From positions 1 to 64,000 of the forward strand of contig JACQFZ010000028.1 of assembly GCA_016199745.1 (NCBI GenBank): a stretch of DNA of 64,000 nt, read 5' to 3'. A program made the translations under genes and the position numbers. Each line of letters begins with the position of its first letter. The stretch's first letter is position 1. This stretch comes from Gammaproteobacteria bacterium (GTDB taxonomy: Bacteria > Pseudomonadota > Gammaproteobacteria > Acidiferrobacterales > Sulfurifustaceae). Below the pieces are notes generated by a model that made no database searches, was not told where the DNA came from, and worked only from the letters and a program-made list of their open reading frames with translations. This document shows, piece by piece, positions 24,241 to 41,691 of this stretch.

Positions 24241-27200
24241 CAGCCGATCTCGTCGGTATCGGTGGCTGCGCCCGGGCGCACCGGAAACAATTTGCGTAAC
24301 GCGCGCTCGCGGTGATCGTGCATGACGGCGAGATGCTCCTTGGTCGCTTCCTCGCGTTCGTTTTTGCGACGCCGACGGGCGAGGATCGGCAATGGATCGA
24401 AACGGTTCCACAGCGGTGTCGTCGCGATCAGGCTCGCGGCCAGGGCGCCGCCGCGCAGGATCCAAGAAATAAAGCCGACGGTGAGAATGGCGCCGCTGAA
24501 TGTCGTGGCGCTCGTAAACAGCGGCGTTGAACCTTCGCGCAACTGTGTGCGCATATCGTCGAGCGCGCGACCGAGGGCGTTGAACGAATGCACGTTGCCG
24601 GGAGCTGGTATCGACGAAGCCGTCACCGGACCCCTTGACGAAACGGATGCGGTGAACGACGCGCTCGCGTTTACGTCAGGCACCATCGACGCCGTTCGCT
24701 GGGTGGCGGCGAGACTCGGGTTTGAGGTCGGTTTCGCGCTAGGCAGTGGCCGCCATGTGCTGACATAGGGAACATCGGTCGTTACACCGCCGTCGACTCC
24801 CATCACCGGTGGCGTTGATGGCGCCGGCGAACTTATCGGCGCCGGCGGTACCGGCGCTCCGCCGTTTACCGGCGGCGCTGGTGACGTGACCGGATCCGGC
24901 GGGATGACGAGCGTCACTGTGATCGCGAAGCTCGATCCGACCATAGCGCCGCTGCCGTCGGCGACGATGAAACCAAAAACGTCAGTCGCCGCGGTCGTAT
25001 TGTTGTGGCGATAGCTCACTCGATTGGCGTTGAGATCCGCTTGCGTAAACGTGTCATTGAGGCCTAAAGCAACACCGTCGAGCTGCAACACACCCGCTGT
25101 CGGCAACGCCGTCAGCGTGTAAACCAATTGCACGTCGCTGTTATCAACGTCGGTGGTCGCGAGCTGCAGCGGTGTTACCGTCGCGTTCGCACCTTGGAGC
25201 AGCGTCAGCCCGGTATTCGTCGCCAGCACCGGCGCATCGTTCACCGGTGTCACGTCGATCGTCAGCCGGTTCGGGCTGGCGGCGAAGCACGCGCTTTGAT
25301 CGCACACCGAGAACCTAATGCTCGCATAGGCAACACCGTTCGCATTTGCCGCCGACGTGTAGACGAAATTACCGGCGACCAGGTCGGCCGCGGTGACGAT
25401 TTGTCCGGCGCTGACCGCCGCGCCGGCGAGTGTCAGCGTACCGTTCACCGGCAACATATCGATGCGCACCGCGCTCAAGCTGTCGCCGACGTCGGCATCA
25501 TTGAAACCGAAGTCAGTAACGTCGAACACATACGCGACGTCTTCAGCGGTTGTGATAGTGGCGTCGCTGCCGGTAGGTGCGGTGTTGGCAGTCGCGACAC
25601 TGACGCTGATCGCTTGCATGTCGGTACCGCCGTTACCGTCGGCGACTTGCACGGTGACGTCGTAGATATTGTCGGCACCAACATCGGTGGGTGTACCGAA
25701 GATCGGCGCGACGACGAAAACCAACGCGCCGGTCGTACTGTCGATCGCAAAGTGCGCGGCATCGGCGCCACCGACGATCGAATAGGTCAGCGTCGGCGCT
25801 GGCACGTCGACGTCGGTGGCGGTAACGGTGGTGACGGCGGTGGTGCCCTCGGCCACCGAAATTGCTGCCGTCGCGGCGGCGCCGTTCGAGGTGATCACCG
25901 GCGTATCGTTGACCGCGGTGATCACGATTGACGCCGTTTCGGTCGTGCTCGAGAACGAGGAGCTACCGCCGTTGACCGAGGTATTGGCGAGCGCGCCGTT
26001 GGCGCCGGTCGTCCGGTCCCAGGCGCGGAACGTGAGCACGTCGGAAACGGTGCCGTTGAAATCGGCGGCCGGTCGGAAATAGAGGCGGGTGTTGGCATCG
26101 GCGGCGAGCAGCCGCGCGTTGGTGTTGCTGACCGCGCCTAAGTTCAACCAATTCGCGCCGCCGTCAGTCGTGTACCACCAGTCGGTTGTGAACCCGGTAA
26201 AGCCATAGGTGGTATCGGCGCCGGTGACGGCGATGCCGAGCAAAGCGCCGGCGTCGGGATCGCTGATGTTGTCGATTTGGCCGCTCGGGCTGGCGAAATC
26301 AACCAGACTCGAGACCAAGGTGCCGACAGCGCCGACCGGGGCCGGCGAATCTTCGTTCTCGGTGCTGAGCACCGGCGAGTTCGCGTAGGCGTAGCGCTGC
26401 ATGAACACGCCATCGTTATCGCCGCTGCCGTTGCCATTCCACACCACCACCATATGACCGATGTCATCGACGGCGATGCGGGCGTTTTGTTGATTGCCGG
26501 AGGTCGTCGAGCTAACGCGCGTCTCACCGCTGATCGCGTTGCCACTGGCGTCGTACTCGTGCAGGTACACACCGTAACCGCTGCCGTCTTGGTTGATGCT
26601 TTGCCAAGCGATAACGAAGCCGCCGGAGGAACGCATCGTCACCGTCGGATATTGCTGCCAATCGGCGGTCGTTACATTAACCAGGAACTCGCTGCCCTGG
26701 GCGGCACCGGCTGAGTTGTAGCATTGGGCGCAGATGCCCCAACCATCGCCGTCATTGTTTCGGCTGTGCCACGTCACCACGAAGTTGCCGGTGGCGTCCA
26801 TCGCCACCGCCGCGTCCATCTGATCGTTGGCGGTGGTGGTATTGACGCGGAACTCGCCGCCTTGGGCGACACCGGCAGCGTTATAGCGCTGTGCATAGAC
26901 GCCCCAACCGCTGCCGTCATTGCTTTGCCAGACAACGACAAAATTGCCGACGCTGTCCATCGCCACCACCGGAACGGATTGCCCATTGATCGTGGTATTG
27001 ACGCGGAACTCGCCGCCTTGGGCGACACCGGCAGCGTTATAGCGCTGTGCGTAGACGTTGTAACGCAGACCGAGATCCAGATTGGTCCAGGCGATGACAA
27101 AGTTGCCGCTGGCATCGATCGCGATCGAAGGAGTGCTCTGATCTCCTACCGTCGTGGTATTGACGCGGAATTCCCCGCCTTGCGCCACGCCGGCGGCGTT

Positions 27201-30200
27201 GTAGCGTTGCGCATAGACGCCGTAAAGGCTGCCGTCTTGACTCCAACTTTGCCAGGCGATGACAAAGTTACCGCTGGCAGCCAATGCAATCGTTGGCGCA
27301 AACTGATTGTTTGCCGTCGTCGTATTGACCTGGAACTCACCGCCTTGCGCGACGCCGGCCGCGTTGTAACGTTGGGCAAAGATGCCGGCGCCATTGGCGT
27401 CGGCCGCACTCCAAGTCACGACATAATTGCCGTTGGCATCCATCGCCACGGTTCCGCCGCTTTGCGAATTAGCTGTCGTGGTGTTTACCCGGGTCTCACC
27501 GCCTTGCGTGGTCGGCACCAACGACGGCGCCTCGTTGGCATCGGTTACGGTCACGCTGATCTGTTGGGTGTCGGTGCTGCCGTTACCGTCGGATACCTGT
27601 ACCGTCACGTCGTAGACGTTGTCGGTGTTGGCATCTGACGGCACTTCGAAGTTGGGTGCAACGGCGAAGGTCAAGACGCCGGTCACGCTGTCGATGCTAA
27701 AGCGCAAACCATCGGCACCGCCGACGATCGAGTAGCTGAGCGTATTCGCCGGCACGTCGACGTCGGTCGCGGTAACCGTGGTCACGGTGTTTGTGTTCTC
27801 AGCGACCGATATCGCGGCGGTAACGCCGCCGCCGTTTGAAGTAATTACCGGCGCATCGTTGACGGCGTTGACCACCACGTCAACGGTGCCAATAGCAATT
27901 GAGAACGCGGTCGAGCCACCGCACACGACGGTGTTGGCCAGCCCACCGTTGCTGCCGCTCGTTTGATCCCAAGCGCGAAAGTCGAGTGCGGCACCGACAG
28001 CGCCGTTGAAATTGGCGGTGGATTGATAGTAGACACGGGTGTTGGCGTCGGCGGAGAGCAGACGAGCGTTGGTGAAAGTACCGCCTAACGCGAGCCAGTT
28101 GGTACCACCGTCGGTCGTATACCACCAGTTGCCGCTGCCGATATCCGCGTAGGTCACGGCGATGCCAAGCAAGGCGCCGGCGTCCTGTTCGGTGACGTTG
28201 TCAACTTGACCGCTTGGGCTAGCGAAGTCGACGAGACTCGATACCAACGTGCCGACCGCGCCGGACGGCGCCAGCGCGTCTTCATTTACCGTGACCGATA
28301 TCAATTTACTGGGATCGAGCACCGGCGCGTCGTTGACGGCAGTCACGACCACCGAGGCGGTGTCGGTCACCATCGAGAAGGCGGTGGCACCGCCATTGCT
28401 CGAAGCGTCTGCCAACGCGCCGTTGCTGCCGGTCGTTTGATCCCACGCGCGGAACGTCAGCGCTGGCGCAATCGTGCCGTTGAAATTGGCGCTGGGCCGG
28501 AAATAAATCCGCGTGTTGGCGGCGGCGGCGAGTTGACGCGCGTTGCTGTCACTCACCGCGCCTAACGCCAACCAGTTGCTGCCACCATCGGTCGTGTACC
28601 ACCAGGTACCGTTGCTGGTATCGGCGGCGGTCACGGCGATGCCGAGCACGGCGCCGCTGTCGCGATCTAATACGTTGTCGACTTGACCGCTCGGACTGGC
28701 GAAGTCGACGAGACTCGAGACTAACGTGCCGACCGCGCCGGACGGCGCCGGCGCGTCTTCGTTAAGCGTCATTGTCGGCGGCGTCCGCGAATAATCGTAA
28801 CGCCGCATGAAGATGCCGTCGGCATCGCCGCTGCCGTTGCCGCTCCAAACGATGACCGCGCGACCGGTGTCGTCCACGGCAACACTGGGACTTAACTGCC
28901 AGCCTGAGGTGGTGGCGTTAACCAGTGTCTCACCGGTGAGCGCGTTGCCGGCGGCGTCATACTTGCGTGTGTAGATGCCATAGCCGCTGCCGTCTTGCTG
29001 ATCGCTGGCCCAGGCGACGATAAAACCGCCGGAGGGCAACATGGCGATGGCACTGCTTGTCTGATCGTTGTTGGTGGTGACGTTGATGCGGAACTCCGCG
29101 CCCTGGGCGACACCCGCGCTGTCGTAACGCTGTGCATAAATGCCCATGCCGCTGCCGTCCTGACCGGCGCTAGACCAGACGACGACGAAGTTGCCGCCGG
29201 CTTCCATCGCCACCGACGGCAGCTGTTGATTGTTGGCGGTCGTGGTGTTGACGAGGAACTCGCTGCCTTGGGCAACGCCGGCGGCGTTGTAGCGCTGCGC
29301 GTAGATACCATCGCCGCTGCCGTCTTGCCCAGTACTGCTCCAAACAATGACGAAGTTGCCGCTGGCATCGATCGCCACTTTGGCACTTGATTGATTGCCG
29401 GCAGTCGTAGTGTTGGCGCGGAACTCGCCGCCTTGGGCAACACCGGCGGCGTTGTAGCGCCGTGCGTAGACGCCGGTTCCGCCGCTGTCCGGACTTTCCC
29501 AAACGACGATGAAGTTGCCGCTGGCATCCATCGCGATCGATGGAAGTTGTTGGTCGTTCGCGGTGGTAACGTTGACGCGAAACTCGCTACCTTGGGCAAC
29601 GCCGCTGCTGTTGTAGCGCTGCGCGTAAATGCCATTGCCGCTGCCGTCTTGCAGAAAGCTCTCCCAGACAATGACGAAGTTGCCGCTGGCATCCATCGCC
29701 ACCGCCGGGAATGCCTGATTGTTGGCGGTGGTGGTATTGACGAGGAACTCCGCTCCCTGGGCGACGCCGACGGAATTGAAGCGCTGTGCGTAAATACCGT
29801 AGCTGCTACCGTCGTGGTTAAAGCTCATCCAGGTGACGACGTAATTGCCATTGGCATCCATCGCCACATTCTTATTGCCGCCCATGTCTTGGGTATCGGT
29901 CGTGACGGTGTTCACCCGCATCTCGCCGAAGGTAATCTCCGGCGCATCATTCACGGCCGTCACGGTAACGGGAACAGTGTCGGTGGCGCTCGAAAATTCC
30001 GTGGTGCCACCATTGATGGAGGTACCGCTGTACGTGCCGTTGCTACCCGCGGTTTGATCCCAGGCGTGGAACGTCAGCCCGGCGGCGATCGTGCCGATGA
30101 AGTCGGCGTTCGGTTGGAAATAGATCCGCGTGTTGGCGTCAGCCGCGAGTTGAAGCGCGTTGTCGGTGGTCACCGCTCCTAACGCAAACCAATTCGTGCC

Positions 30201-32789
30201 GCCATCGGTCGTGTACCACCACGCACCGTTGCTGGTATCGACGGCAGTCACGGCAATGCCGAACAACGCACCGCTATCGGCGTCACTGACGTTCGCCAAC
30301 GGCATACCGTTGGTGACGAGATTCGATACCAATGTGCCGACGGCGCCAACCGGTACCGGCGCGCCTTCACTCACCGCGTTCAACGCCGGCGACTTGGTGT
30401 TGTCGAGCACCGGTGCATCGTTGACGGCGTTGACGGTAACGTAAGCATTGACCGCGTATTGCGAGATGGCGGAATTACCGCCGCGCCCAGTGGTATCGGC
30501 CAGCCCGCCATTGCTGCCCGTCGTCTGGTCCCAGGCGAGCAGCATCATGGAGGCGGTACCGTTGAAATTAGCGGTCGGCCGGAAATAGACGCGGGTATTG
30601 GCGTCGGCCGCGAGCAGGCGTGCGCTCGTGCCGCTGACGGTATCTAAAGAGAGCCAATTGGTACCACCGTCGGTGGTGTACCACCACGTACCGTTGGTGG
30701 TATCGGTGTAAGCCACGGCGATGCCGAGCAACGCACCGGGGTCGTTGTCGATGACGTTATCGACCTGGCCCAACGGATTGTCAAAGTCGACGAGATCGGA
30801 GACCAACGTACCGACGGCACCAACGGGCGCCGGCGCGTCTTCGTTGATCGAATTCAGTAACGGCGTCTGCGTGGTGATGAGGAACGGCGCGATGTTATGC
30901 GTGTAGCGTTGCATGGCAACGTCTATGGAGTCGCTGTGCCAGACGACCACCAGTTGGCCGTCGTCATTCACGGCAACGCTCGCGTTCCTCTGATCGCCGA
31001 CGGTCGTGGTGTTGACCAGCGTTTCACCGGTGAGCGGATTGCCGGCGGTATCGTACTCGCGCAGGTATATGCCGGCTTGATCGCCATCCTGATTCCAACT
31101 GTCCCAGGTCACGTAGAAACCGTCGGTCCGGCGCATCGATACCGACGGATTGCTCTGGGCCGAGGCGGTCGTGGCGTTGATTTGAAATTCACTGCCTTGG
31201 GCAACGCCGTTGTAGTTGTAGCGTTTGCCGTAAATACCGCTGCCACTGCCGTCTTGGTTATCGCTGGTCCAAACGACGACGAAGTTGCCGAGGGCATCCA
31301 TCGACACCGACGGGTTGTACTGATTATCGGCGGTGGTGGTGTTGACGCGGAACTCGCTGCCTTGGGCGACACCGCTGCTGTTGTAGCGTTGCCCATAGAC
31401 GCCGTAGCCGCTGCCGTCTTGGTTCGCGCTGTTCCAAACGATGACAAAATTGCTGACATCGTTCATCGCGATCGCCGGCGTGTCCTGAACGTTCAGGGTG
31501 GTGGTGTTGACCCGGAACTCGCCGCCTTGGGCGACGCCGTTGGCGTCGTAGCGTTGGGCATAAATACCGCCGCCGCTGCCGTCCTGATTGTCGCTGCACC
31601 AGGCGATGACGAAGTTGCCGCCGGGGCCTGTAGCGATCGCCGGCTGCATCTGGTTGTCGGCCTGCGTGGTGTTAACGATGAACTCACCGCCTTGGGCGAC
31701 GCCGTTGGCGTCGTAACGCTGCGCGTAGATGGTGCCGATGACGGTGGGATCGACATTGTCGCCGTACCAGGCGACGACGAAATCGCCATTAGCACCCATG
31801 GCAACTGACGGCGACATCTGGTTGTTGAACGTCGTCGTGTTAACTCGGAACTCAGCGCCTTGGGCGACACCGCTGGCGTCGTAACGCTGCGCGTAGACGC
31901 CATTACCGCTGCCGTCTTTAACGCTGTCTTGCCATACCACGACAGAGTTGCCGTTGCTATCGATGGCAACGTTGCGTGTCTGACTCACGATAGTGCCGGT
32001 GCCGGGTCCACCGGTGTCGACCTGGGTCTCACCGCCGTCGGTCGTGACCGCCAGCAGGCCTTGCCAACTCGCTTGCAGCGCCGCGCTCGGCGCCACGGTC
32101 GTTTCGATCGCGCCGCTATCGACTTCGAGCAACCAATCGCCGCCGAGCGCGTGCGCACCGGTGGCGTCATCGCTGGCGGCGACGTCGGCGCCGGTAAAAC
32201 GGCTCAGCGCGTCGATCAGCACATGACCGTTCGGCGTCGCTGCGACATCGCAGCCATAGAGCATGATGTCGGCGTCGTCGGTAAATGCATTGCGCCACTG
32301 TTGAATCGCGCCGGCATTGTCGAACAGCGTATTGGCGTCGAGTTCGGTGGCACCGAGCTCGACGGTGCCGGCGCGGCCGTGCGAGATGATGTGCAGCGCC
32401 GACAGATCGTGGCGATCGGCGAGCGCGTCGCTGACCTGCTGGATGCCGTCGCGCGTCGGATCGAGCACGACGATATCGATCGAGCGTCCATCCGTGCGCG
32501 GACCGAGGAGATCGGAAACGATTTGGCCATAATCGCTAACACGCGGATCGATCAGCACCAGTTCCTTGCGCGCCTCGACGGCAGCGGCGGCGCTGGTCGA
32601 GGACGACGGCGCGAATGCAGCGAGATCGATCGATTGGATGATGGCGGGTTCGATGACGGGCGTCGCATCAACGACGAGACCGCTCACGTCGGCGGACAAC
32701 AGCAAACGCGATTCGAGCTCTTCGAATCGCGGACCACCGACCCTGGCACCATCAACATCCCTGCGCTTGTTATGTTTCTTGAAAGGCAT
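24240..32789 (-). CDS. Giant LEPRxLL/DUF4347 surface protein with propeller and cadherin-like repeats
   Basis: 2849 aa. Basic N-terminus, then LESRLLLSADVSGL at residues 25-38, a variant of the LEPRxLL signal. Residues ~70-220 are DUF4347 (LVLIDPRVSDYGQIVSDLL; ALHIISHGRAGTVELG; ADIMLYGCDVAAT). Three blocks of seven ~53-aa repeats follow (res ~250-628, ~953-1330, ~1760-2131), each unit of the form GNFVVVWxSxxQDGSGxGIYAQRYNxxGVAQGxEFRVNTTT. Between and after them are five ~145-aa NEDAPAPVGAVG units and two cadherin-like domains (~1647-1754, ~2299-2404), then ~270 residues of VCBS/cadherin-like sequence, a Pro-rich linker (~2560-2600), one membrane span (res ~2765-2795, TVGFISWILRGGALAASL) and a basic tail with NRFDPLPILARRRRK. 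A large adhesin-like protein, probably exported by the genes upstream. No RTX C-terminal signal is present. Confidence 0.9.
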   Translation of the reverse strand: MPFKKHNKRRDVDGARVGGPRFEELESRLLLSADVSGLVVDATPVIEPAIIQSIDLAAFAPSSSTSAAAAVEARKELVLIDPRVSDYGQIVSDLLGPRTDGRSIDIVVLDPTRDGIQQVSDALADRHDLSALHIISHGRAGTVELGATELDANTLFDNAGAIQQWRNAFTDDADIMLYGCDVAATPNGHVLIDALSRFTGADVAASDDATGAHALGGDWLLEVDSGAIETTVAPSAALQASWQGLLAVTTDGGETQVDTGGPGTGTIVSQTRNVAIDSNGNSVVVWQDSVKDGSGNGVYAQRYDASGVAQGAEFRVNTTTFNNQMSPSVAMGANGDFVVAWYGDNVDPTVIGTIYAQRYDANGVAQGGEFIVNTTQADNQMQPAIATGPGGNFVIAWCSDNQDGSGGGIYAQRYDANGVAQGGEFRVNTTTLNVQDTPAIAMNDVSNFVIVWNSANQDGSGYGVYGQRYNSSGVAQGSEFRVNTTTADNQYNPSVSMDALGNFVVVWTSDNQDGSGSGIYGKRYNYNGVAQGSEFQINATTASAQSNPSVSMRRTDGFYVTWDSWNQDGDQAGIYLREYDTAGNPLTGETLVNTTTVGDQRNASVAVNDDGQLVVVWHSDSIDVAMQRYTHNIAPFLITTQTPLLNSINEDAPAPVGAVGTLVSDLVDFDNPLGQVDNVIDNDPGALLGIAVAYTDTTNGTWWYTTDGGTNWLSLDTVSGTSARLLAADANTRVYFRPTANFNGTASMMLLAWDQTTGSNGGLADTTGRGGNSAISQYAVNAYVTVNAVNDAPVLDNTKSPALNAVSEGAPVPVGAVGTLVSNLVTNGMPLANVSDADSGALFGIAVTAVDTSNGAWWYTTDGGTNWFALGAVTTDNALQLAADANTRIYFQPNADFIGTIAAGLTFHAWDQTAGSNGTYSGTSINGGTTEFSSATDTVPVTVTAVNDAPEITFGEMRVNTVTTDTQDMGGNKNVAMDANGNYVVTWMSFNHDGSSYGIYAQRFNSVGVAQGAEFLVNTTTANNQAFPAVAMDASGNFVIVWESFLQDGSGNGIYAQRYNSSGVAQGSEFRVNVTTANDQQLPSIAMDASGNFIVVWESPDSGGTGVYARRYNAAGVAQGGEFRANTTTAGNQSSAKVAIDASGNFVIVWSSTGQDGSGDGIYAQRYNAAGVAQGSEFLVNTTTANNQQLPSVAMEAGGNFVVVWSSAGQDGSGMGIYAQRYDSAGVAQGAEFRINVTTNNDQTSSAIAMLPSGGFIVAWASDQQDGSGYGIYTRKYDAAGNALTGETLVNATTSGWQLSPSVAVDDTGRAVIVWSGNGSGDADGIFMRRYDYSRTPPTMTLNEDAPAPSGAVGTLVSSLVDFASPSGQVDNVLDRDSGAVLGIAVTAADTSNGTWWYTTDGGSNWLALGAVSDSNARQLAAAANTRIYFRPSANFNGTIAPALTFRAWDQTTGSNGALADASSNGGATAFSMVTDTASVVVTAVNDAPVLDPSKLISVTVNEDALAPSGAVGTLVSSLVDFASPSGQVDNVTEQDAGALLGIAVTYADIGSGNWWYTTDGGTNWLALGGTFTNARLLSADANTRVYYQSTANFNGAVGAALDFRAWDQTSGSNGGLANTVVCGGSTAFSIAIGTVDVVVNAVNDAPVITSNGGGVTAAISVAENTNTVTTVTATDVDVPANTLSYSIVGGADGLRFSIDSVTGVLTFAVAPNFEVPSDANTDNVYDVTVQVSDGNGSTDTQQISVTVTDANEAPSLVPTTQGGETRVNTTTANSQSGGTVAMDANGNYVVTWSAADANGAGIFAQRYNAAGVAQGGEFQVNTTTANNQFAPTIALAASGNFVIAWQSWSQDGSLYGVYAQRYNAAGVAQGGEFRVNTTTVGDQSTPSIAIDASGNFVIAWTNLDLGLRYNVYAQRYNAAGVAQGGEFRVNTTINGQSVPVVAMDSVGNFVVVWQSNDGSGWGVYAQRYNAAGVAQGGEFRVNTTTANDQMDAAVAMDATGNFVVTWHSRNNDGDGWGICAQCYNSAGAAQGSEFLVNVTTADWQQYPTVTMRSSGGFVIAWQSINQDGSGYGVYLHEYDASGNAISGETRVSSTTSGNQQNARIAVDDIGHMVVVWNGNGSGDNDGVFMQRYAYANSPVLSTENEDSPAPVGAVGTLVSSLVDFASPSGQIDNISDPDAGALLGIAVTGADTTYGFTGFTTDWWYTTDGGANWLNLGAVSNTNARLLAADANTRLYFRPAADFNGTVSDVLTFRAWDRTTGANGALANTSVNGGSSSFSSTTETASIVITAVNDTPVITSNGAAATAAISVAEGTTAVTTVTATDVDVPAPTLTYSIVGGADAAHFAIDSTTGALVFVVAPIFGTPTDVGADNIYDVTVQVADGNGGTDMQAISVSVATANTAPTGSDATITTAEDVAYVFDVTDFGFNDADVGDSLSAVRIDMLPVNGTLTLAGAAVSAGQIVTAADLVAGNFVYTSAANANGVAYASIRFSVCDQSACFAASPNRLTIDVTPVNDAPVLATNTGLTLLQGANATVTPLQLATTDVDNSDVQLVYTLTALPTAGVLQLDGVALGLNDTFTQADLNANRVSYRHNNTTAATDVFGFIVADGSGAMVGSSFAITVTLVIPPDPVTSPAPPVNGGAPVPPAPISSPAPSTPPVMGVDGGVTTDVPYVSTWRPLPSAKPTSNPSLAATQRTASMVPDVNASASFTASVSSRGPVTASSIPAPGNVHSFNALGRALDDMRTQLREGSTPLFTSATTFSGAILTVGFISWILRGGALAASLIATTPLWNRFDPLPILARRRRKNEREEATKEHLAVMHDHRERALRKLFPVRPGAATDTDEIG
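26390..27515 (-). repeat. Third block of seven ~53-aa repeats
   Basis: In-gene tandem array with ~160-bp period. Seven units can be counted by their W-S/N-G core (from TWSAADANG to VWNGNGSGDNDG). One unit carries CAQCYNS in place of YAQRYN. Confidence 0.8.
28795..29935 (-). repeat. Second block of seven ~53-aa repeats
   Basis: Same unit as the other two blocks, seven copies from TWMSFNHDG to VWSGNGSGDADG. The last copy in each block is the more divergent one, as expected for a closing propeller blade. Confidence 0.8.
30905..32045 (-). repeat. First block of seven ~53-aa repeats
   Basis: Seven copies from VWQDSVKDG to VWHSDSIDV. The first unit starts with ETQVDTGGPG, which can supply the outer strand missing from the last unit (Velcro closure). 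Confidence 0.8.
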
Positions 32790-32938: not shown

Positions 32939-33661
32939 TCAGTGCGGGGCAAAACGCACTTTGCAGCGTAACCCGCTGGGAATCGCCTGGGTTGGGTTCG
33001 GAATTTCAAGACGGACGGCGAACGTGCCGCTGGCGCCATCGATCACTTTGTCGACGACGGTAACGGTCGCATTCAACGGCCCGACGCTGCCGAGCTCGGG
33101 TTGCACCTGCGCGCTCATTCCTTTTTGAATTTGTCCGAACGCGGATGCCGGCAACACCAGCTCGATGCGCAACGGATTGATCTGCACGAGCTTGAGGATG
33201 GTCTTGTCTTTCACCGATTCGCCCGGCGACAAATAGCGCTCGGCGACGACACCGCTGATCGGACTACGGATGATGCGCAGATTGAGCGTCTCGCGCGCGT
33301 GGCGCATTTGCTGCTCGCTTATCCGCGCGTTGGCATCGGCTTCGTCTTTATCGCTGAACGGAATCGCGTTCTTGGCATACAGCTGTTGCGCGCGCGATTG
33401 CTTGCGCTTGTCGAACTCGGACTTGGTCTCGGCCAGCGCCAACGCCGCCTCCTCAACACCGGCGCGCAACTTGACCAGCTCCTGACCTTGCTTAACGACG
33501 GCGCTGCGATCGACCGCGATTGATTCGATAACGCCGTCGACCGAACTGCGTAGCTCCACGGTCATGTTCGGTTCAATGAGACCTTCGAACTCGGATATCG
33601 GCGGCGCGGCGAACGCGTTGGTCGCGAGTAGCAACCACAAATAGAATCCTAGGCGCTGCAT
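32939..33661 (-). CDS. Periplasmic HlyD-type adaptor of the surface-protein secretion locus
   Basis: 240 aa from ATG 33661, with a signal peptide (MQRLGFYLWLLLATNAFA) and no transmembrane anchor. Then lipoyl half 1 (FEGLIEPNMTVELRSSVDGVIESIAVDRSAVVKQGQELVKL), a short hairpin (~95-135), lipoyl half 2 (SPISGVVAERYLSPGESV) and a beta-barrel (LVQINPLRIELVLPASAFGQI). The longer upstream frame is just the inverted repeat of the DUF559 element. It is the third HlyD-like polypeptide in this locus and sits between the SecA-like gene and the giant gene. Probably bridges an inner-membrane component and TolC. Confidence 0.88.
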   Translation of the reverse strand: MQRLGFYLWLLLATNAFAAPPISEFEGLIEPNMTVELRSSVDGVIESIAVDRSAVVKQGQELVKLRAGVEEAALALAETKSEFDKRKQSRAQQLYAKNAIPFSDKDEADANARISEQQMRHARETLNLRIIRSPISGVVAERYLSPGESVKDKTILKLVQINPLRIELVLPASAFGQIQKGMSAQVQPELGSVGPLNATVTVVDKVIDGASGTFAVRLEIPNPTQAIPSGLRCKVRFAPH

Positions 33662-33665
33662 CTTA

Positions 33666-34130
33666 TTACTCACTCCCCTCTCCCGCTTGCGGGAGAGGGG
33701 TTGGGGGAGAGGGCGTCCGCTGCTCAACCACCCCCTCTCCCCTTACCCCTCCCCCCAAGGGGGGAGGGGAATCGGGTTCGTTCGGATTTATCGATGAGAT
33801 CGGTTGTACCGCTAGATGAATTGCCTCCAACACAGCCTCCGTCCGTTGCAACACGTCATGATTCCAAAACCGAAGCACGCGATATCCCTGTAAATGCAAC
33901 GACGCATCTCGACGCCGATCCGATTCGGCGTTTTCTTGATGTTGGCCACCGTCTACTTCGATAATCAGTTGGTGTTCATGGCAGACGAAATCGACGATAT
34001 AACCGCCTATAGGCTTCTGCCGTTTGAATTTCAGACCCAGGAAACGATGCGCACGCAGGTGATACCACAGACGCTGTTCAGCATCGGTTTGGTCGCATCT
34101 GAGTTTTTTGGCATTTTCGATTAACGACAT
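33666..34130 (-). CDS. DUF559 endonuclease-like protein carried by a mobile repeat element
   Basis: About 154 aa from ATG 34130 (MSLIENAKKLRCDQTDAEQRLWYHLR). DUF559 proteins have a PD-(D/E)xK/Vsr-like fold; here IGGYIVDFVCHEHQLIIEVDGGQH gives the Asp...Glu-x-Asp catalytic pattern. The reading frame runs on into the right-hand inverted repeat (TPSPPTPLPQAGEG), so the repeat encodes the C-terminus. It is inserted between the SecA-like and HlyD genes, has no functional link to secretion, and is best read as a selfish element. The frame is also open upstream through the other repeat, but that part is not conserved. Confidence 0.8.
   Translation of the reverse strand: MSLIENAKKLRCDQTDAEQRLWYHLRAHRFLGLKFKRQKPIGGYIVDFVCHEHQLIIEVDGGQHQENAESDRRRDASLHLQGYRVLRFWNHDVLQRTEAVLEAIHLAVQPISSINPNEPDSPPPLGGGVRGEGVVEQRTPSPPTPLPQAGEGSE
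33672..33712. repeat. Left inverted repeat of the DUF559 element
   Basis: About 40 bp; its reverse complement matches 34131-34171 at about 38 of 40 positions. Each arm is itself a hairpin (TCTCCCGC/GCGGGAGA). Confidence 0.8.
33729..33770. repeat. Internal C-rich hairpin, second repeat family
   Basis: CCCCCTCTCCCCTTACCCC followed by CTCCCCCC/GGGGGGAG. Nearly the same as 47303-47344, where GCAA replaces part of the loop. Confidence 0.65.
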
Positions 34131-34171
34131 TTCCCTCTCCCCCCACCTCTCTCCCGCAAGCGGGAGAGGGG
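34131..34171. repeat. Right inverted repeat of the DUF559 element
   Basis: Pairs with 33672-33712 (see there). Ends ~15 bp before the stop codon of the SecA-like gene. Confidence 0.8.
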
Positions 34172-34185
34172 ATATAAATACGAAT

Positions 34186-36237
34186 CTATTCAGCGCGGCC
34201 GGAGAACGCCATGCGCTCGTCGCGGCGTTCGTCATCGCGCAGCAACGCGCGGCGTGCGCGGCGATGACGGTGCTCGGCAAGCTGCTGCGCTAACCAGACA
34301 AAACCAGCGCCGAGCCACGTTGGAATCATCGACACGGTGCGGCGCGTGAACCACCGCGGCCAATTCCCTAACTGTAGTCGGATCACGTCGTCTTCGAGCG
34401 AGCCGAAAACTTCATAACTGCCCGGGTCGCCCTGACGCGCGCAGCGGCCGATCAATTGGCGGTCGACGCGGCGCGAGTCGTTAGGCGCGCACAAGATCAC
34501 ATGCAATCCGCCGCGCGCACTGACCTGCTCAGCCAGAACGATGTCGGTTCCGCGGCCAGCCATATTGGTCGCGATCGTTACCTGCGCGGTCTGGCCGGCG
34601 CGGGCGACGATCGCGGCCTCGTCAGCATCTTGGCGGGCGTTGAGTATTTGGTGAACGACGCCGGCGCTATTAAGTAAGGCACTGAGTTGCTCCGACTCGA
34701 CCAACGTGCGCGTACCGACGAGCACCGGCCGGCCGGCGGCGTGCTCGCGCTGAATCGCCTGCACGATTGCCGGCCACTTATCGGCGGCACGTCGAAAATA
34801 GTGCGCACCGCTCGTACGCAACTGACTTGGCCGGTGCCGCGGTACTGTCACGACCGATAGGCCGTATACGCGACGCAACTCGCCGCCCACTTCGCGCAGC
34901 GTGCCCGACATACCCGCGAGTCGCAGATAACGCTGAAAGAAACGCTGATAGCTGATGCGCGCGAGCGGTTGCGGCGGCGCGCTCGGCGGCAGTCCTTCTT
35001 TAACCTCGATCATCTGCTGCAGTCCCTGCTCCCACGAGCGATCCGGTAATGTGCGGCCGGTGTGCTCGTCGATGATTTCGACACGGCCGTTGCGCACCAA
35101 GTAATGCCGGTCGCGCTGATATAAATGACGCGCAGCTAACGCCTGCTCGGTCAGCGCTTCGCGCTTGCGTTGATCGGCCCAGACACTACCGAGCGGGCGA
35201 CCGATCTCAGCCAGTCGACGGGCACCGTTGCGGGTTAAGGCGATACGTCGCGCGGTTTCATCCAGCGTGAAATCGTGACCCGGTTGTAGTTGCTCGGCGA
35301 GCCAGAGCGCCGGTCGGTAGTGCTCGGCAAAACCGTTGTCGCCGCCAGCACCGGCGAGAATCAAGGGTGTGCGCGCTTCGTCGACGAAAATACTGTCGGC
35401 CTCGTCGACGATGGCGAAGTAGAGTCCGCGCAACAGTAGTTGCTCGGTACGACGTTCGCCGGTGCAGAGCGCGCTCAATTGCAAACGCAGCTCGTCGACA
35501 TCACCACCGAGCGTCAGTCGATCGCGCAAGTAATCGAACACCAGTTGTTGGCTAGTGCAGTAGGTAATATCGGCGGCATACGCCGTGCGCCGCTCGCGCG
35601 TGGCGACGTCGGCGGTGACGACGCCAACGCTCAGCCCGAAGCGCCGGTAAATCGGCGCCATCAGTTCCGCATCACGCCGCGCTAGGTAGTCGTTGACGGT
35701 CACAATGTGCACCGGAATGCCAGCGAGCGCGGCGGTGCAAGCCGCGAGCGTGGCCGTGAGGGTCTTACCTTCGCCGGTTACCATCTCGGCAAGCAGGCCG
35801 TCGAGTAGCGCCCAACCGGCAATAACTTGTTGGTCGTGGTGTCGTAACCCGAGCGTGCGCTGCGTCAACTCGCGCACCGTGGCGAACGCGCAGGCAATGT
35901 TTTCCGGTGACAGATGCGCGCGCCACAATCGCCGGCGCAACGCTTGGATCCAGCGTTCCATGTCCGGCTCATTCAGTTGCCGCAGCGCTCGATCGTAGCG
36001 TTCGAGCTCGCGCAAGAATGCCGGCCACTGTCGAACGCGCGCGGCGCGCGGCGGATGCAGCGGTAGCAATAGGCGCTCGAGCGTGCGTTCAAGGCGTTCG
36101 TCAGCGGCAAGACGGCGTTGCGGATAAAGACCAAAGCGCACGCCGGGCCGCAGGAACGGCCGTGCTCGCGCCGCGAACCGCGCGGTGATTTCCGCGGGGT
36201 CGAGCGGCGCTGACGACGGCGTGGGCGCGGAGCTCAT
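34186..36237 (-). CDS. Divergent SecA-like translocase ATPase
   Basis: 683 aa from ATG 36237, against ~900 aa for housekeeping SecA. DEAD-type motor present: EMVTGEGKTLTA (Walker A, ~residue 155), TVNDYLARRDAELM, VDEADSIFVDEARTPLI (Walker B, ~275), GMSGTLREV, NMAGRGTDIVLAEQ and QLIGRCARQGDPG (~595), where SecA normally has QLRGRAGRQGDPG. The wing/scaffold C-terminal third and zinc-binding tail are absent; instead there is a short C-terminal region with a hydrophobic patch (MIPTWLGAGFVWLAQQLAE) and an Arg-rich end. It sits 14 bp after the M50 gene. Most likely a dedicated motor for export of the giant LEPRxLL protein, not the general SecA. Confidence 0.9.
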   Translation of the reverse strand: MSSAPTPSSAPLDPAEITARFAARARPFLRPGVRFGLYPQRRLAADERLERTLERLLLPLHPPRAARVRQWPAFLRELERYDRALRQLNEPDMERWIQALRRRLWRAHLSPENIACAFATVRELTQRTLGLRHHDQQVIAGWALLDGLLAEMVTGEGKTLTATLAACTAALAGIPVHIVTVNDYLARRDAELMAPIYRRFGLSVGVVTADVATRERRTAYAADITYCTSQQLVFDYLRDRLTLGGDVDELRLQLSALCTGERRTEQLLLRGLYFAIVDEADSIFVDEARTPLILAGAGGDNGFAEHYRPALWLAEQLQPGHDFTLDETARRIALTRNGARRLAEIGRPLGSVWADQRKREALTEQALAARHLYQRDRHYLVRNGRVEIIDEHTGRTLPDRSWEQGLQQMIEVKEGLPPSAPPQPLARISYQRFFQRYLRLAGMSGTLREVGGELRRVYGLSVVTVPRHRPSQLRTSGAHYFRRAADKWPAIVQAIQREHAAGRPVLVGTRTLVESEQLSALLNSAGVVHQILNARQDADEAAIVARAGQTAQVTIATNMAGRGTDIVLAEQVSARGGLHVILCAPNDSRRVDRQLIGRCARQGDPGSYEVFGSLEDDVIRLQLGNWPRWFTRRTVSMIPTWLGAGFVWLAQQLAEHRHRRARRALLRDDERRDERMAFSGRAE

Positions 36238-36251
36238 CGGCTGGCGGCCAT

Positions 36252-38393
36252 TTAGTCGGCAACTTGGCGCAGCAATTGACGGCGCAACGCGCGCTGCCAA
36301 CGAAACACCAACGGTTCGTAACCGTGGTCGAAGCGCGCGTAAACACGCGTGCCGATGCGGGTCCAGGCAACGTCGGCCGGCAACGCCAGATCGATTTGAA
36401 AAATCGGCTCGCGCGTGCGCATGCCCGACTCATCGAGCGGATCGACCGTAATACCGTTCGGTGCCGCGAGCGCGCGGCTCGGTAGTCGATCGATAGCGCC
36501 ACCGACTTGGCGCAACAGGTGCGCCGCCACTTCCGCGCCCGGCGCGTCGGCCGGCATGATCGTGACGGCGCGCGTGTCGCGGCGAATCGAGCCGATGTCG
36601 GCTTGCCGCACGACGATGCGCGCGGTGAGCGCGTTCCGATCGACGACGAAACCGATGACCTCGCCTTGTTTGACGAAGCGTCCCGGCAAATTTGTGGCGT
36701 CGGGAATTACCAACGTACCGGCGGTACCGGCACGGAGAATTTGCTCGGCGGCACGCTCGCGCAGACGCGCCAATGTTCCATCGGCGGCCCGCAGCTGTTG
36801 CTGCATGCCGGCGGCGGCAACGCGATCGGTCTCGATCAGCGCGTAGTAGCGCCGCTCAAGCTCGCGCTGCTCGGCCTCGAGCGCACGCAATTGCAATTCG
36901 ACGTCGGGATCGACAATACGCACGAGCGCGTCGCCCGGCTGCACCGCGCTGGCGTCGGCCAGCAGCACTTCCTCGACGAAACCATCGGCACCCGCGCGAA
37001 CTTGGGCTTGCTCCGGCAACCACACCACACCGACCGCGTGCGTCGACAGCGGCAACGGCAGCGCAATCAACGCTAGCAACAACATCGCCGCACCGCCGAA
37101 CGCCGTCAGTAGCGCGCGCCGCCGCTGACCTTGTAGCAACGGACTACGCAATACGAAGCGCGCGCCGTTGAACAACGGATGCGCGACCTGCACGACCAAC
37201 AGCCACAGCGCGAGCGCGATGCCGAGCACGAGGTAGCTGGAACTCAAATATAAAACGACGGCGATGCCGATACCGATGCGGTAAACGAACGCTGCCAAAC
37301 CGTAGACGATGAACCAGCCGCGCTCGCCGGCGACACTGACCGGCGATTCCGTGGTACGCAAACCAAACAAATAGCGTTGCGCGAGATAAGCGTAATAACG
37401 CGTGGCGCGTGCACCGAGTCCGGGGATACCGATGGCGTCGGTCAGCACGTAGTAGCCGTCGTAGCGCAGCAGCGGATTGCCGTTGAACAACGCCGTCGAC
37501 ACACCGCCAATCAACATGAGGTCGAGCGCGATGTCGCGCACGACGCCGGGTTGCAGCACGATCCACGCGAACAACGCCAACGCGGCGATGAAAAGCTCGA
37601 CGCCGACACCAGCGGCGGCGACGATCATGCGCCGTTGCCGCTCAGGAAATGCCGACGCCGCCGACGCGTTCACATAAGGTACCGGCACGAACACGAGCAA
37701 CATCAGGCCGACTTCGTGTACCGCGCCGCCCCACACTTTAGTGGCGCAGGCATGGCCGAGCTCATGCACTGTCTTCACCAACGGGTAGAGCGCGGCCAAC
37801 AACCATAAGTTATTCGGCGTCAGCGCCTGATCGGCGGCATGCGCGGCGATGGCCGGGCCGTGCTTGAGCGCGAGCAGCGCGGCGACGGCGACCGTCGCCA
37901 GCCACACGATCGCAAACGTCCTACTGAAGAGCGGCCTAACCCACGGCAGCGCCCGCTGCAAGAATCGATCGGGATCGAACAGCGGTAACCGCAGTGACAA
38001 CGGATTCAACATCAGATTACGCCAACGATGGCGTGCAGCTCGTTGCTGGCGCTCGAATAACGCGGCGGTGTCGGGCGGTAAATCGCCCAACAACAGATCG
38101 GCCGCATGCAGTTGGCTGAGTAACTGAATGACTTGTGTCTGCGTCGGCGCAGCATCGCCGAGCTCGGCGACGGCGCGCTGGCAAATCTGCTCGACCGTGA
38201 GCACACCATCCATCGGCGCGATCAACGCTTCGGCGTCACGATTAAAGCGATATTGACGGCCGGCGGCGGTGTCTTCGAGCACGCACCAGGCGCCGTCACG
38301 GTAGTGATGCCGATGCACACGCGCGTGCGGCGGCAATCGCGGGCGTAGCTTAGCGACGCGATACCAGTGGGGACTGAATAACGGTTCAGCCAT
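36252..38393 (-). CDS. PqqD-like / M50 zinc protease / lipoyl-HlyD fusion membrane protein
   Basis: 713 aa from ATG 38393 (AAGGGA Shine-Dalgarno). Residues ~35-115 look PqqD-like (WCVLEDTAAGRQYRFNRDAEALI...QVIQLLSQLHAADLL), a fold used to bind leader peptides. Then come several membrane spans with an M50 site-2 protease core: HELGH near residue 210 and NGNPLLRYDGYYVL near 305 supply the zinc ligands (His, His, Asp). After a last span (ALLTAFGGAAMLLLALIALPL) the C-terminal ~250 residues are lipoyl/hairpin/beta-barrel of a HlyD adaptor (QVRAGADGFVEEVLLADASAVQPGDALVRI). So recognition, possible cleavage and periplasmic bridging are joined in one chain. Role in handling the giant protein is inferred from context. 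Confidence 0.88.
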   Translation of the reverse strand: MAEPLFSPHWYRVAKLRPRLPPHARVHRHHYRDGAWCVLEDTAAGRQYRFNRDAEALIAPMDGVLTVEQICQRAVAELGDAAPTQTQVIQLLSQLHAADLLLGDLPPDTAALFERQQRAARHRWRNLMLNPLSLRLPLFDPDRFLQRALPWVRPLFSRTFAIVWLATVAVAALLALKHGPAIAAHAADQALTPNNLWLLAALYPLVKTVHELGHACATKVWGGAVHEVGLMLLVFVPVPYVNASAASAFPERQRRMIVAAAGVGVELFIAALALFAWIVLQPGVVRDIALDLMLIGGVSTALFNGNPLLRYDGYYVLTDAIGIPGLGARATRYYAYLAQRYLFGLRTTESPVSVAGERGWFIVYGLAAFVYRIGIGIAVVLYLSSSYLVLGIALALWLLVVQVAHPLFNGARFVLRSPLLQGQRRRALLTAFGGAAMLLLALIALPLPLSTHAVGVVWLPEQAQVRAGADGFVEEVLLADASAVQPGDALVRIVDPDVELQLRALEAEQRELERRYYALIETDRVAAAGMQQQLRAADGTLARLRERAAEQILRAGTAGTLVIPDATNLPGRFVKQGEVIGFVVDRNALTARIVVRQADIGSIRRDTRAVTIMPADAPGAEVAAHLLRQVGGAIDRLPSRALAAPNGITVDPLDESGMRTREPIFQIDLALPADVAWTRIGTRVYARFDHGYEPLVFRWQRALRRQLLRQVAD

Positions 38394-38418
38394 GCGTATT
38401 CCCTTCAAAAACAGTCGC

Positions 38419-38457: not shown

Positions 38458-40206
38458 CTACGGCAACCATGACCACCACTTCAAGCGCAGCCAGTTAATG
38501 AGCGAGCGTGTCCAGATGGAAATCAATTGCCGCGAGTCGATATCGATTTTGGCGATGCCTTGCATGCCGGGGCGTAAATAATTCAGCGGTTTGTCGAGCT
38601 TGGCCTCGACCCGGAAATAATTGGCATGCGCATCCGTGCTCGCCACCGGCGTGATGCGCTCGACCACGATCGCCAGCGCCTCGTCCGGCATCGCCGTCAA
38701 CGTCAGCCGTCCGCGTTGACCGGCGCGCACGTCGGCAATATCGGTTTCATCGACTTTCAAGATCACGCGGTAGTCATCGAGCGGCGCCAGCTTGAACAGC
38801 ACTTGCCCGCGTTCGACCGGCGAGCCGAGCGCTTGGCTGAAGTCGCCGCTGATAACGATGCCGTCGAACGGTGCGATCAGCTGCGCCCGACCGAGCTGCT
38901 TCTCGGTGAGCGCGAGTTGCGATTCGGCTTGCGCTAGCTGTGCGTTCAGCACGCCGATTTGGATGCGGTCATGCTCGGCGAGCGCGCGCCGATATTCCTG
39001 CAACACCTGCTCCTGCTTCGCCGACCACTTCAGCTGTTCGAGTTTGAGATCGCGGTCGTCCAGCGCCGCGAGCACCGCACCTTGGGTGACGACATCGCCC
39101 GGCCGCGCGCTGACGCTTTGCAGAAATCCTTTTTGCGGCGCGGCGACGATGCGTTCGATACGTCCTTCGAGCAACGCGTCGGCGGTGACTTGATACTGAC
39201 CGGAAATGACCGTCAGCAGCACTAACAGCAAGACGACCGATCCGCCACCGAGCTTGGTAAGTAAATGTCCCGGGCCGAACCAACGTTGCCATTGCGCGTG
39301 CGCCGCATCGCCGATCATCGACAGTAATCCACGATCCTCGGAACGACGTAATTGCAAAATCGGGCCAACGAGCAGCGCAATCTGCTCGAACAAACGCGCG
39401 TTGTCGGCGTCCCACGACGATTGCGCGGCACTGCGCTCGAATGTCAGCGCACCGAGCAAGCTCTGCCGATGATGCAACGGGATCGTGCAGATCGCGCTGC
39501 TTTGTTGCCAGCGCGCGAGTTCGGCATGCGCGATCGGGACGCGGGTGTTCGGCACCGGCGGATGCAACACGGTGGTCTCGTGTTCAAGCGCTTCGTCCAT
39601 TGCCGCTTCGAGTTGCCGCGCGAGCTGCTGCCGTTGCGAGAAGCCGGCGTTGTTGGCGAGCGCTTGCAGCTTGATATGGCGACCGTGGATCACGCCGAGG
39701 CTAACGCGATCGCAACCAAGTCGTGCCGCCAGCTCGGTCACGAGCGTGGTCGCCGCCGCCGCAAACGAATCGGCCGTCAAGCAGGCGGCGACCAGGTCGA
39801 GCACAGCGCCCAATTGCTCGGTGCGTTTCGGTGTTGCCGGCAATTCGAGTTGGTCGAGCCATAAACTGCCGACCTGCAACATTTGCGCAAGCGGTGCGCG
39901 TTGCTCATTCGTCAGGCGTGGAACCTCGAACACAACGGCACCGTAAATTTTTCCATCGCGCACGAGCGGCGCCGCGAGCATTTCATGTTCGCTGTCGTTG
40001 CCGGCGGCGAACAAAAATTGGCCGTGCTGAATCGCGCCGCGCGCGGCGGCGGTCATGACCGGGCTAACGGCGTAGTCCGCCGGCGACACTGCCGTCGCCG
40101 TGCAGCTGCCATCGGCTGCGCCGACAAAAACGACCCCTTTGGCCGTGGCGTCGATAAGCCGGCACTGAACCGAAAGCCAATGGTTTACGGGGGCGCTCCC
40201 TAGCAT
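38458..40206 (-). CDS. GAF-domain / HlyD adaptor fusion, first gene of the secretion operon
   Basis: 582 aa. Residues ~10-115 and ~130-290 look like two cytosolic GAF-type sensor domains (for example LGCDRVSLGVIHGRHIKLQALAN and ICTIPLHHRQSLLGALTFE). A single span at ~320-342 (GGSVVLLLVLLTVISGQYQV) leads into the periplasmic HlyD part: lipoyl halves around ALLEGRIERIVAAPQKGFLQSV and LIAPFDGIVISGDFSQALGSPV, hairpin between, and a beta-barrel ending in YLRPGMQGIAKIDI. A fused sensor-adaptor is unusual and suggests that export is gated by a cytosolic ligand. First gene after a sigma-54 promoter at 40245-40261. Confidence 0.88.
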   Translation of the reverse strand: MLGSAPVNHWLSVQCRLIDATAKGVVFVGAADGSCTATAVSPADYAVSPVMTAAARGAIQHGQFLFAAGNDSEHEMLAAPLVRDGKIYGAVVFEVPRLTNEQRAPLAQMLQVGSLWLDQLELPATPKRTEQLGAVLDLVAACLTADSFAAAATTLVTELAARLGCDRVSLGVIHGRHIKLQALANNAGFSQRQQLARQLEAAMDEALEHETTVLHPPVPNTRVPIAHAELARWQQSSAICTIPLHHRQSLLGALTFERSAAQSSWDADNARLFEQIALLVGPILQLRRSEDRGLLSMIGDAAHAQWQRWFGPGHLLTKLGGGSVVLLLVLLTVISGQYQVTADALLEGRIERIVAAPQKGFLQSVSARPGDVVTQGAVLAALDDRDLKLEQLKWSAKQEQVLQEYRRALAEHDRIQIGVLNAQLAQAESQLALTEKQLGRAQLIAPFDGIVISGDFSQALGSPVERGQVLFKLAPLDDYRVILKVDETDIADVRAGQRGRLTLTAMPDEALAIVVERITPVASTDAHANYFRVEAKLDKPLNYLRPGMQGIAKIDIDSRQLISIWTRSLINWLRLKWWSWLP

Positions 40207-40368: not shown

Positions 40369-41691
40369 ATGTGGCGTAAGGCAGTGCTAGTCGTGGCTTC
40401 CTGCTTCGTCGTTTTCACACCGGCTTGGTCGGCCGGTGCACCTGGCTTACCCGAAATTTATGCACTGGCGCTGCAGAAAGCGCCGGAAATGCGAGCCGCC
40501 GCGGCAGCGTTCGCCGCTACCGATGCGGCACGCAGTCAGAGTTTGCGCGCGTTGCTGCCATCGCTGTCGGCAAGCGCGGAATCGGCCAAGAACCGGCAAG
40601 ACGTGCTCGAGACCGGCGTGGGTAACACCGGCGAATTTCGCTTCGACAGCAATACCTACACCCTGACCTTGCGCCAGCCGGTGTTTCGCCGCGACTTGTT
40701 CACGCATATTGACCAAACGACGGCGCAGATCACGCAGGCGCAAGCGGAGTACCGCGCCGTGCAGCAAGCCTTTATCGTGCGTGTTGCTGAACGCTATTTC
40801 GAGGTTCTGGCAGCACAAGATAATCTCGAATTTGCACGCGCGGATCGCACGGCGGTGGCACGTCAGCTTGAACAAATCCGCGTGCGCCACAGCATCGGCG
40901 TCGGCGCACTCACCGATTTACGCGAAGTCGAAGCGAGTCACGATCTCGCGATCACGCAAGAGATCGATGCCGAGTCGCGTTTGACCAGCGCCGAAGAAGC
41001 GTTACGCGAGCTTAGCGACAACTATCCGCAGCCGTTGCGCCGGCTCAACATCGAAATCCCGTTGCTCGCCCCCGAGCCGGCAACGCTCGATGCGTGGAGC
41101 CGACTGGCCGAGCAGGAAAATCAAAAACTGCTCGCCGCCACCGGTGCGGCGCGCGTGGCCGAACAGGAAATCGCTCGTCAGCGCGCCGGTCACTACCCTT
41201 CGCTCGATCTGGTCGCGACGTCGTCGAAAACAGAGAGCGGTGGGCGTTTCGGCGACAGCGATATCAAGGACAACGCGATTGCGCTGCAGCTCAACGTACC
41301 GCTGTACTCGGGCGGCCAGATCAGCGCGCAAGTACGTGAAGCCCAGGAACGTTACACCGAAGCCCGTGAGCGCGCCGAGCAGCAACGGCGCGCCGTGATC
41401 CGCCAAACCAGCGACGCTTACCGCGCCGTGATCGCCAGCATCAGCCGCGTCGGCGCACTAACGCGCTCGATCGCTTCGACCGAAGCGGCACTCGATGCTG
41501 TCGAAACCGGATTCCAGGCGGGAACACGCACGGCGGTCGACGTTCTTGGCGCGAAGCGGACGCTACTGCGCACCCAACGCGACCATGCAGCCGCGCACTA
41601 CACCTATATATTGAATACCTTGCGCCTTAAGGAGGCGGTCGGCACATTGTCACAAGCGGACATAACAGCACTCGCCGGCTGGTTCAATTAA
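40369..41691 (+). CDS. TolC-family outer-membrane channel
   Basis: 440 aa. Signal peptide ending ...FTPAWSA-GAPG, then two OEP repeats as in type I secretion channels: LPEIYALALQKAPEMRAAAAA, LRQPVFRRDLFTHIDQTTAQI, and the second half with LQLNVPLYSGGQISAQVREAQERY and GFQAGTRTAVDVLGAKR. Transcribed divergently from the GAF-HlyD/M50/SecA operon, sharing a 162-bp intergenic region with back-to-back sigma-54 promoters, so it should be the outer-membrane exit of the same system. No ABC exporter accompanies it. It differs from the lipidated NodT protein at 14.8 kb in having no lipobox. Confidence 0.92.
   Translation: MWRKAVLVVASCFVVFTPAWSAGAPGLPEIYALALQKAPEMRAAAAAFAATDAARSQSLRALLPSLSASAESAKNRQDVLETGVGNTGEFRFDSNTYTLTLRQPVFRRDLFTHIDQTTAQITQAQAEYRAVQQAFIVRVAERYFEVLAAQDNLEFARADRTAVARQLEQIRVRHSIGVGALTDLREVEASHDLAITQEIDAESRLTSAEEALRELSDNYPQPLRRLNIEIPLLAPEPATLDAWSRLAEQENQKLLAATGAARVAEQEIARQRAGHYPSLDLVATSSKTESGGRFGDSDIKDNAIALQLNVPLYSGGQISAQVREAQERYTEARERAEQQRRAVIRQTSDAYRAVIASISRVGALTRSIASTEAALDAVETGFQAGTRTAVDVLGAKRTLLRTQRDHAAAHYTYILNTLRLKEAVGTLSQADITALAGWFN

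Follow-up and report, generated by a model that had tools for sequence, protein, structure and literature searches.

A four-gene locus that is related to the type I secretion system (T1SS) and that encodes a SecA without the wing has been reported previously, and the M50 protein of that locus has been proposed to form a pore (Kamneva, Poudel & Ward, 2015; PMC4452313). The reported locus consists of genes for a GAF-HlyD protein, an M50-HlyD protein, a SecA_DEAD protein without the wing-scaffold, an HlyD protein and sometimes an outer-membrane channel. A locus of Methylobacterium extorquens AM1 (MexAM1_META1p2402 to 2399) is named there, and the broader role was called completely unknown in the same report. 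The main text of the report does not mention a PqqD domain, the LEPR motif or a giant substrate, and it holds neither a subtype that lacks SecA nor the pairing of an anchored giant protein with a c-di-GMP sensor.

The window (the whole stretch of 64,000 nucleotides that was analysed in this work) carries a locus of the same composition, and this locus belongs to the secondary-SecA/T1SS-related group. Since the four-gene cassette had already been described, what this analysis adds is the RRE domain of the M50 protein and the link between the cassette and giant proteins as candidate substrates, both of which are new here. No paper was found in the open-access, non-preprint literature that joins LEPR or PqqD to the locus or LEPR-XLL to an export machine, and LEPR-XLL is mentioned only in passing in the literature that was found. 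The cassette is common, with at least 586 relatives of the M50 protein identified in one scan of a one-genome-per-species collection, yet its substrate and its purpose were earlier reported as unknown (PMC4452313).

Gene order and spread of the cassette

The genes on the minus strand are arranged in the order GAF-HlyD, M50, SecA-like, DUF559, HlyD, giant and PAS-GGDEF-EAL sensor, and a TolC gene is divergent on the plus strand. The order GAF-HlyD, M50, SecA-like and HlyD recurs in nearly all of the 80 cassette loci that were kept out of the at least 586 M50 relatives. Judged by their record titles, those loci belong to Gamma-, Beta- and Alphaproteobacteria, Desulfobacterota, Nitrospirota, Myxococcota and Omnitrophota. 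The GAF-HlyD protein (582 aa; 38458..40206, minus strand) is encoded just upstream of the M50 protein, as it is in nearly all of the 80 loci. The HlyD-family adaptor (up to 262 aa; 32939..33727, minus strand) was identified by an HMM match. The TolC-family outer-membrane channel (40369..41691, plus strand) matches NCBIfam TIGR01844 with 311 bits against a cut-off of 225, and its gene is only sometimes part of the conserved cassette. No ABC exporter was found among the operon genes, and the locus does not qualify as a classical T1SS.

The truncated SecA-like ATPase (34186..36237, minus strand) was identified from domain matches and retains the motor domains. Its likely start is an ATG at 36237, although the mechanical open reading frame extends to a TTG at 36300. 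The family of this protein lacks the helical wing, the two-helix finger and the C-terminal linker, the counterpart of canonical residues about 650-901 being absent across 65 relatives, and its members are not full SecA proteins. The DUF559 endonuclease-like gene (33666..34280, minus strand) lies between the SecA-like and HlyD genes. This gene is probably an insertion outside the export system because no such gene was recognised in the usual cassette order. Repetitive peptides of the PLPxxGEG type are encoded at the ends of the DUF559 gene, as might be expected if a small repeat element had been inserted. A pair of neighbouring genes for ABC-2 type permease-like proteins (19026-21241, plus strand) apparently forms a separate drug-exporter cluster. 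A scan for promoters and terminators returned matches that were no more frequent than in shuffled sequence.

Domains of the M50 protein

The gene of the M50 protein (713 aa; 36252..38393, minus strand) begins with an ATG at 38393 and its stop codon ends at 36252, in exact agreement with the coordinates given in the first-pass annotation. The mechanical open reading frame begins at a TTG at 38408 and encodes 718 aa. The first-pass annotation had also placed a PqqD-like domain, an M50 protease and an HlyD adaptor in one chain, and this architecture is borne out by HMMs, a profile search and structure models.

The RRE/PqqD-like domain (N-domain) comprises about residues 7-108 (38070..38375, minus strand) and was identified by profile search, an AlphaFold2 model, Foldseek and VIA. 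The single sequence matches Pfam PF05402 (PqqD) with E=0.0017 and 19.1 bits, which is under the cut-off of 23.4, and the domain is therefore named PqqD-like and not filed as PqqD. The profile of 75 relatives, when compared with the whole PDB, has three PqqD entries as its top matches, namely 3g2b (E=4e-4), 5sxy (E=0.048) and 5vrd (E=0.43). In the model that AlphaFold2 predicts for residues 1-115 (pLDDT 85.8), strands lie at 24-31, 34-41 and 46-50 and helices at 52-58, 67-81 and 85-97, which is the beta-beta-beta-alpha-alpha-alpha order of RRE elements. The top six Foldseek matches of this model (5v1u, 5v1v and 6jx3; prob 1.00, E 0.007-0.09) are lasso-peptide B1 RRE domains that were crystallised with leader peptides. 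VIA-align gives a Z of 10.0 to 5v1v (87/88 residues aligned, 2.5 A), 9.2 to 6jx3, 8.6 to PqqD 5sxy and 6.8-8.2 to the RREs of LynD, NisB and PbtF, with NisB at 6.8. The three-strand, three-helix winged-helix RRE fold that is predicted by the model and found again by Foldseek and VIA upholds the earlier description of the N-terminal ~115 residues as PqqD-like. Winged-helix domains of other proteins also occur in the VIA list with similar Z because the fold is shared, so that the fold alone is no proof of leader binding. NO66, GdmN and Rv2067c were rejected as relatives of the N-domain, their VIA rows reflecting the common winged-helix architecture. When the relatives were searched for a true PqqD, as used in PQQ synthesis, no matches were returned, but the controls likewise returned none, so that this negative carries no weight.

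The full-length model (pLDDT 87.2) consists of the RRE domain, then seven long helices, then the HlyD domain. The seven helices make up the M50 membrane region at about residues 158-444 (37062..37922, minus strand). This region scores 25.0 bits against Pfam PF02163, for which the cut-off is 27.2, whereas relatives score 27.3 (L075) and, in a distant subtype, up to 42. The zinc motif HELGH (residues 210-214; 37752..37766, minus strand) and the motif NPLLRYDGYY (residues 306-315; 37449..37478, minus strand), which holds the third zinc ligand D312, had been read as a complete M50 zinc site. That reading is confirmed, with H210, E211, H214, N306, P307 and D312 identical in 75/75 relatives. The HExxH motif and the Asp are also kept in nine distant relatives, and in the model HExxH and the Asp of NPxxxxDG both lie in helices of the membrane region, as in an M50 protein. 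The invariant zinc site fits an active protease.

The HlyD/membrane-fusion adaptor domain comprises about residues 446-694 (36312..37058, minus strand). It matches PF13437 above the cut-off and resembles MexA, AcrA and MacA in the full-length model, as would be expected from the C-terminal adaptor that was noted earlier. Since the number of predicted membrane helices is odd, the N-domain would lie in the cytosol and the HlyD domain in the periplasm.

Giant LEPR-XLL proteins and cassette subtypes

The giant protein of the locus (2849 aa; 24240..32789, minus strand) carries DUF4347 and cadherin-like repeats. Its leader (residues 1-34; 32688..32789, minus strand) consists of a basic stretch followed by FEE-LESRLLLSAD, and no Sec-type hydrophobic stretch was found in the leader sequence. 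This LEPR-XLL motif near the N-terminus, LESRLLLSAD, matches NCBIfam NF012209 (LEPR-8K), a family that is defined as a sequence motif, with 18.1 and 25.7 bits against the curated cut-off of 17. The leader logo of 52 sequences exhibits a K/R-rich stretch and then F/L-E-x-LEPR-x-LL-SAD, and the conservation ends after SAD. K/R makes up 30-45% at many positions before SAD and is near zero after it. Five positions of the logo were imposed by the search pattern, while E at -2 and S, A and D at +7 to +9 lie outside the pattern, although the HMM-selected sequences lean towards them.

The co-occurrence of the leader and the cassette was examined in 274 genomes of the class, where 21 genomes have the close full-length form of the M50 protein and 253 do not. 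LEPR matches are present in 16/21 cassette genomes and in 7/253 others (Fisher p=1.4e-16, for genomes that are mostly from different families and with kinship not fully removed). No LEPR match was returned for the other five cassette genomes. Three of these five (G094, G258 and G265) carry the C-terminal anchor described below, and there the motif was probably missed because the N-terminus had been lost at a contig break. LEPR matches are also present in 34/39 further cassette genomes, many of them in open frames of 4,000-14,390 residues. The motif is carried by all 12 giants with a visible N-terminus that were chosen solely by their position downstream of the cassette, one of them having IEPRVMMAAD. 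The M50 protein is thus tied to LEPR-XLL giants by co-occurrence far beyond chance. In one genome (G240), two M50 cassette proteins occur together with five LEPR giants, which are 5,806-14,112 residues long.

The giant ends with a hydrophobic anchor at about residues 2761-2803 (24381..24509, minus strand), for which the consensus is about GYVxWxxRGGxLxxSLLxxxPxWxxxDPLPIL. The anchor is present in 12/21 cassette genomes and in 1/253 others; it was not detected in 9/21 cassette genomes, and most of the giants that lie upstream of a cassette end without it. The membrane PAS-GGDEF-EAL sensor (991 aa; 21265..24240, minus strand) has an ATG that shares one base with the stop codon of the giant. A sensor related to this protein adjoins 11/13 anchored giants (L244-L250 and L252-L254 among the loci). 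This adjacency and the start/stop overlap suggest, by analogy, an anchored surface protein under c-di-GMP-linked control. The anchor was rejected as a universal substrate of the M50 protein on account of the nine cassette genomes that lack it.

M50 proteins that are more distantly related (E 1e-30 to 1e-61) form a further group, which also adjoins GAF-HlyD genes, HlyD genes and giants. The leaders of these giants read LEPRMMFDGA, LEQRVVLDAA or LEPRIMLDAA. The N-domains of the distant group align with the N-domain described here (hhalign prob 95%, E=2e-8), and their M50 site is intact, with HExxH and the Asp. No secondary SecA was found in eight genomes of the distant subtype, which have SecA of canonical length alone. 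The close form of the M50 protein occurs in Marinobacter F4216 (L111) together with a giant that has LEPRMLFSAD, and no secondary SecA was found there either. The leader type tracks the cassette type in the genomes examined, S/A-A-D occurring with the close form and D-G/A-A or D-A-N with the distant form. At L181-L189, distant systems of the PqqD-M50-HlyD type were observed with giants that carry LEPRxMFDGA or LEQRVVLDAA. An intermediate system (L186, 6599-12935) has M50, GAF-HlyD and HlyD proteins and a SecA-like protein that is divergent and shorter (571 aa), and a LEPR search in its genome returned no match.

The first-pass annotation had suggested that the N-domain reads the leader of the giant and presents it to the protease or to SecA. 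The RRE fold and the co-occurrence with LEPR speak for the recognition of the leader. Hand-over to SecA cannot be the general role, since the distant subtype and Marinobacter F4216 keep the N-domain and a LEPR-like leader without a secondary SecA, and that part of the suggestion was discarded.

Proposed role and comparison with known systems

The conserved cassette is found nearly always with LEPR giants, and the M50 protein therefore probably recognises and trims them. We consider the chances about even that this protein serves in the inner membrane as the receptor and the leader protease of a machine that exports giant LEPR-XLL surface proteins without an ABC transporter. In the cytosol, the RRE-type N-domain would bind the freshly synthesised giant by its basic hE-x-LEPR-x-LL-SAD leader. 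The giant would then dock on a conduit made up of the M50 membrane part and the HlyD part, the GAF-HlyD and HlyD partners and the TolC channel; where the truncated SecA-like ATPase is present, it would be the motor. Cleavage of the leader by the M50 site, most likely at SAD or directly behind it, would commit the chain to export. We infer that the leader is bound and cleaved, and also the topology, the conduit and the sequence in which these events occur. A more tentative reading, to which we assign slightly less than an even chance, is that an RRE domain here receives the signal for general protein secretion. In this T1SS relative without an ABC exporter, it would read the N-terminal LEPR leader on proteins of up to about 14,000 residues and hand them to the fused intramembrane protease and adaptor. 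In a partial Mantel test that covered 49 genomes, the N-domain had no leader-specific signal (0.06, p=0.24), and the M50 core covaried weakly with the leader (0.16, p=0.03), so that the N-domain is not favoured over the M50 core. This result, the shared winged-helix fold, the systems that lack the SecA-like protein and the cassette genomes without a LEPR match count against the receptor-protease reading.

The main rival explanation takes the N-domain as a winged-helix assembly module that contacts the GAF-HlyD protein, dimerises or contacts the M50 core, while the leader is read elsewhere, perhaps by the M50 core. The Mantel result and the similar Z of unrelated winged-helix proteins agree with such a module, and three of the most conserved positions of the N-domain (Trp 10, 36 and 71) may have a structural role. 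However, the top six Foldseek matches are leader-bound RREs, and sequence profiles find PqqD first. The beta3 strand and the alpha3 helix are the leader-binding elements of known RREs, and both are more conserved in the N-domain than alpha2 (means of 3.1 and 2.7 vs 2.0 bits). We regard an assembly module as possible but rather unlikely.

The M50 part may instead be a membrane pore that does not cut and that replaces the absent ABC transporter, as proposed for the described locus (Kamneva, Poudel & Ward, 2015; PMC4452313). The operon genes without an ABC exporter agree with this proposal, but a pore would need neither the catalytic Glu nor the zinc ligands. These residues do not vary among 75/75 relatives and are retained by the distant subtype, which makes a mere pore improbable. 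Proteases of the site-2 type M50 family cut membrane helices. The protease could accordingly cut the C-terminal anchor of the giant and not its leader, with release controlled by the neighbouring c-di-GMP sensor. The enrichment of the anchor in cassette genomes and the sensor beside most anchored giants favour this explanation, yet the protease is invariant in all of the cassette genomes, including those in which the anchor is missing, and we see little chance that it holds. The protein was also considered as a maturation protease of RiPPs, of the daptide or epipeptide kind. The NCBIfam daptide_HExxH model matches residues 24-409 with E=1e-44, but its score of 153.2 bits is under the curated cut-off of 300, by which this identity was rejected. 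The operon has no recognised short precursor or RiPP-modifying enzyme and its partners are giants, which leaves a role in RiPP maturation highly improbable.

The daptide intramembrane metalloprotease NF041824 is similar to the M50 protein in that the two can be aligned across the N-domain as well as the M50 region. The joining of these two domains therefore probably predates both the daptide protease and the protein described here. The M50 protein differs from NF041824 in reaching only half of the cut-off score, in its extra HlyD domain and in its association with giants rather than with short precursors.

The locus shares TolC, HlyD, giant repeat proteins and a nearby c-di-GMP sensor with classical type I secretion and the Lap-type giant adhesins. 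The T1SS secretion signal is C-terminal, whereas the putative signal of the giants described here is N-terminal, and the operon differs further from a classical T1SS in having no ABC exporter. The pairing of the anchor and the sensor is analogous to that of Lap systems, but it is not of the Lap family.

The PqqD/RRE-type fold normally grips the leader of small peptides, and to our knowledge RRE domains have hitherto been described in pathways that make peptide natural products. The N-domain is similar to PqqD and to the RRE domains of TbiB1, NisB and LynD in fold and in sequence profile. It differs from them in that it is fused to a protease/export adaptor and is found with giants, and its leader binding is putative. 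If the receptor-protease reading is true, the LEPR-XLL giants gain an export route, the cassette gains a substrate, and RRE domains extend from peptide modification to protein secretion. An RRE outside RiPP pathways that serves as a secretion receptor would, if shown, be new among these systems.
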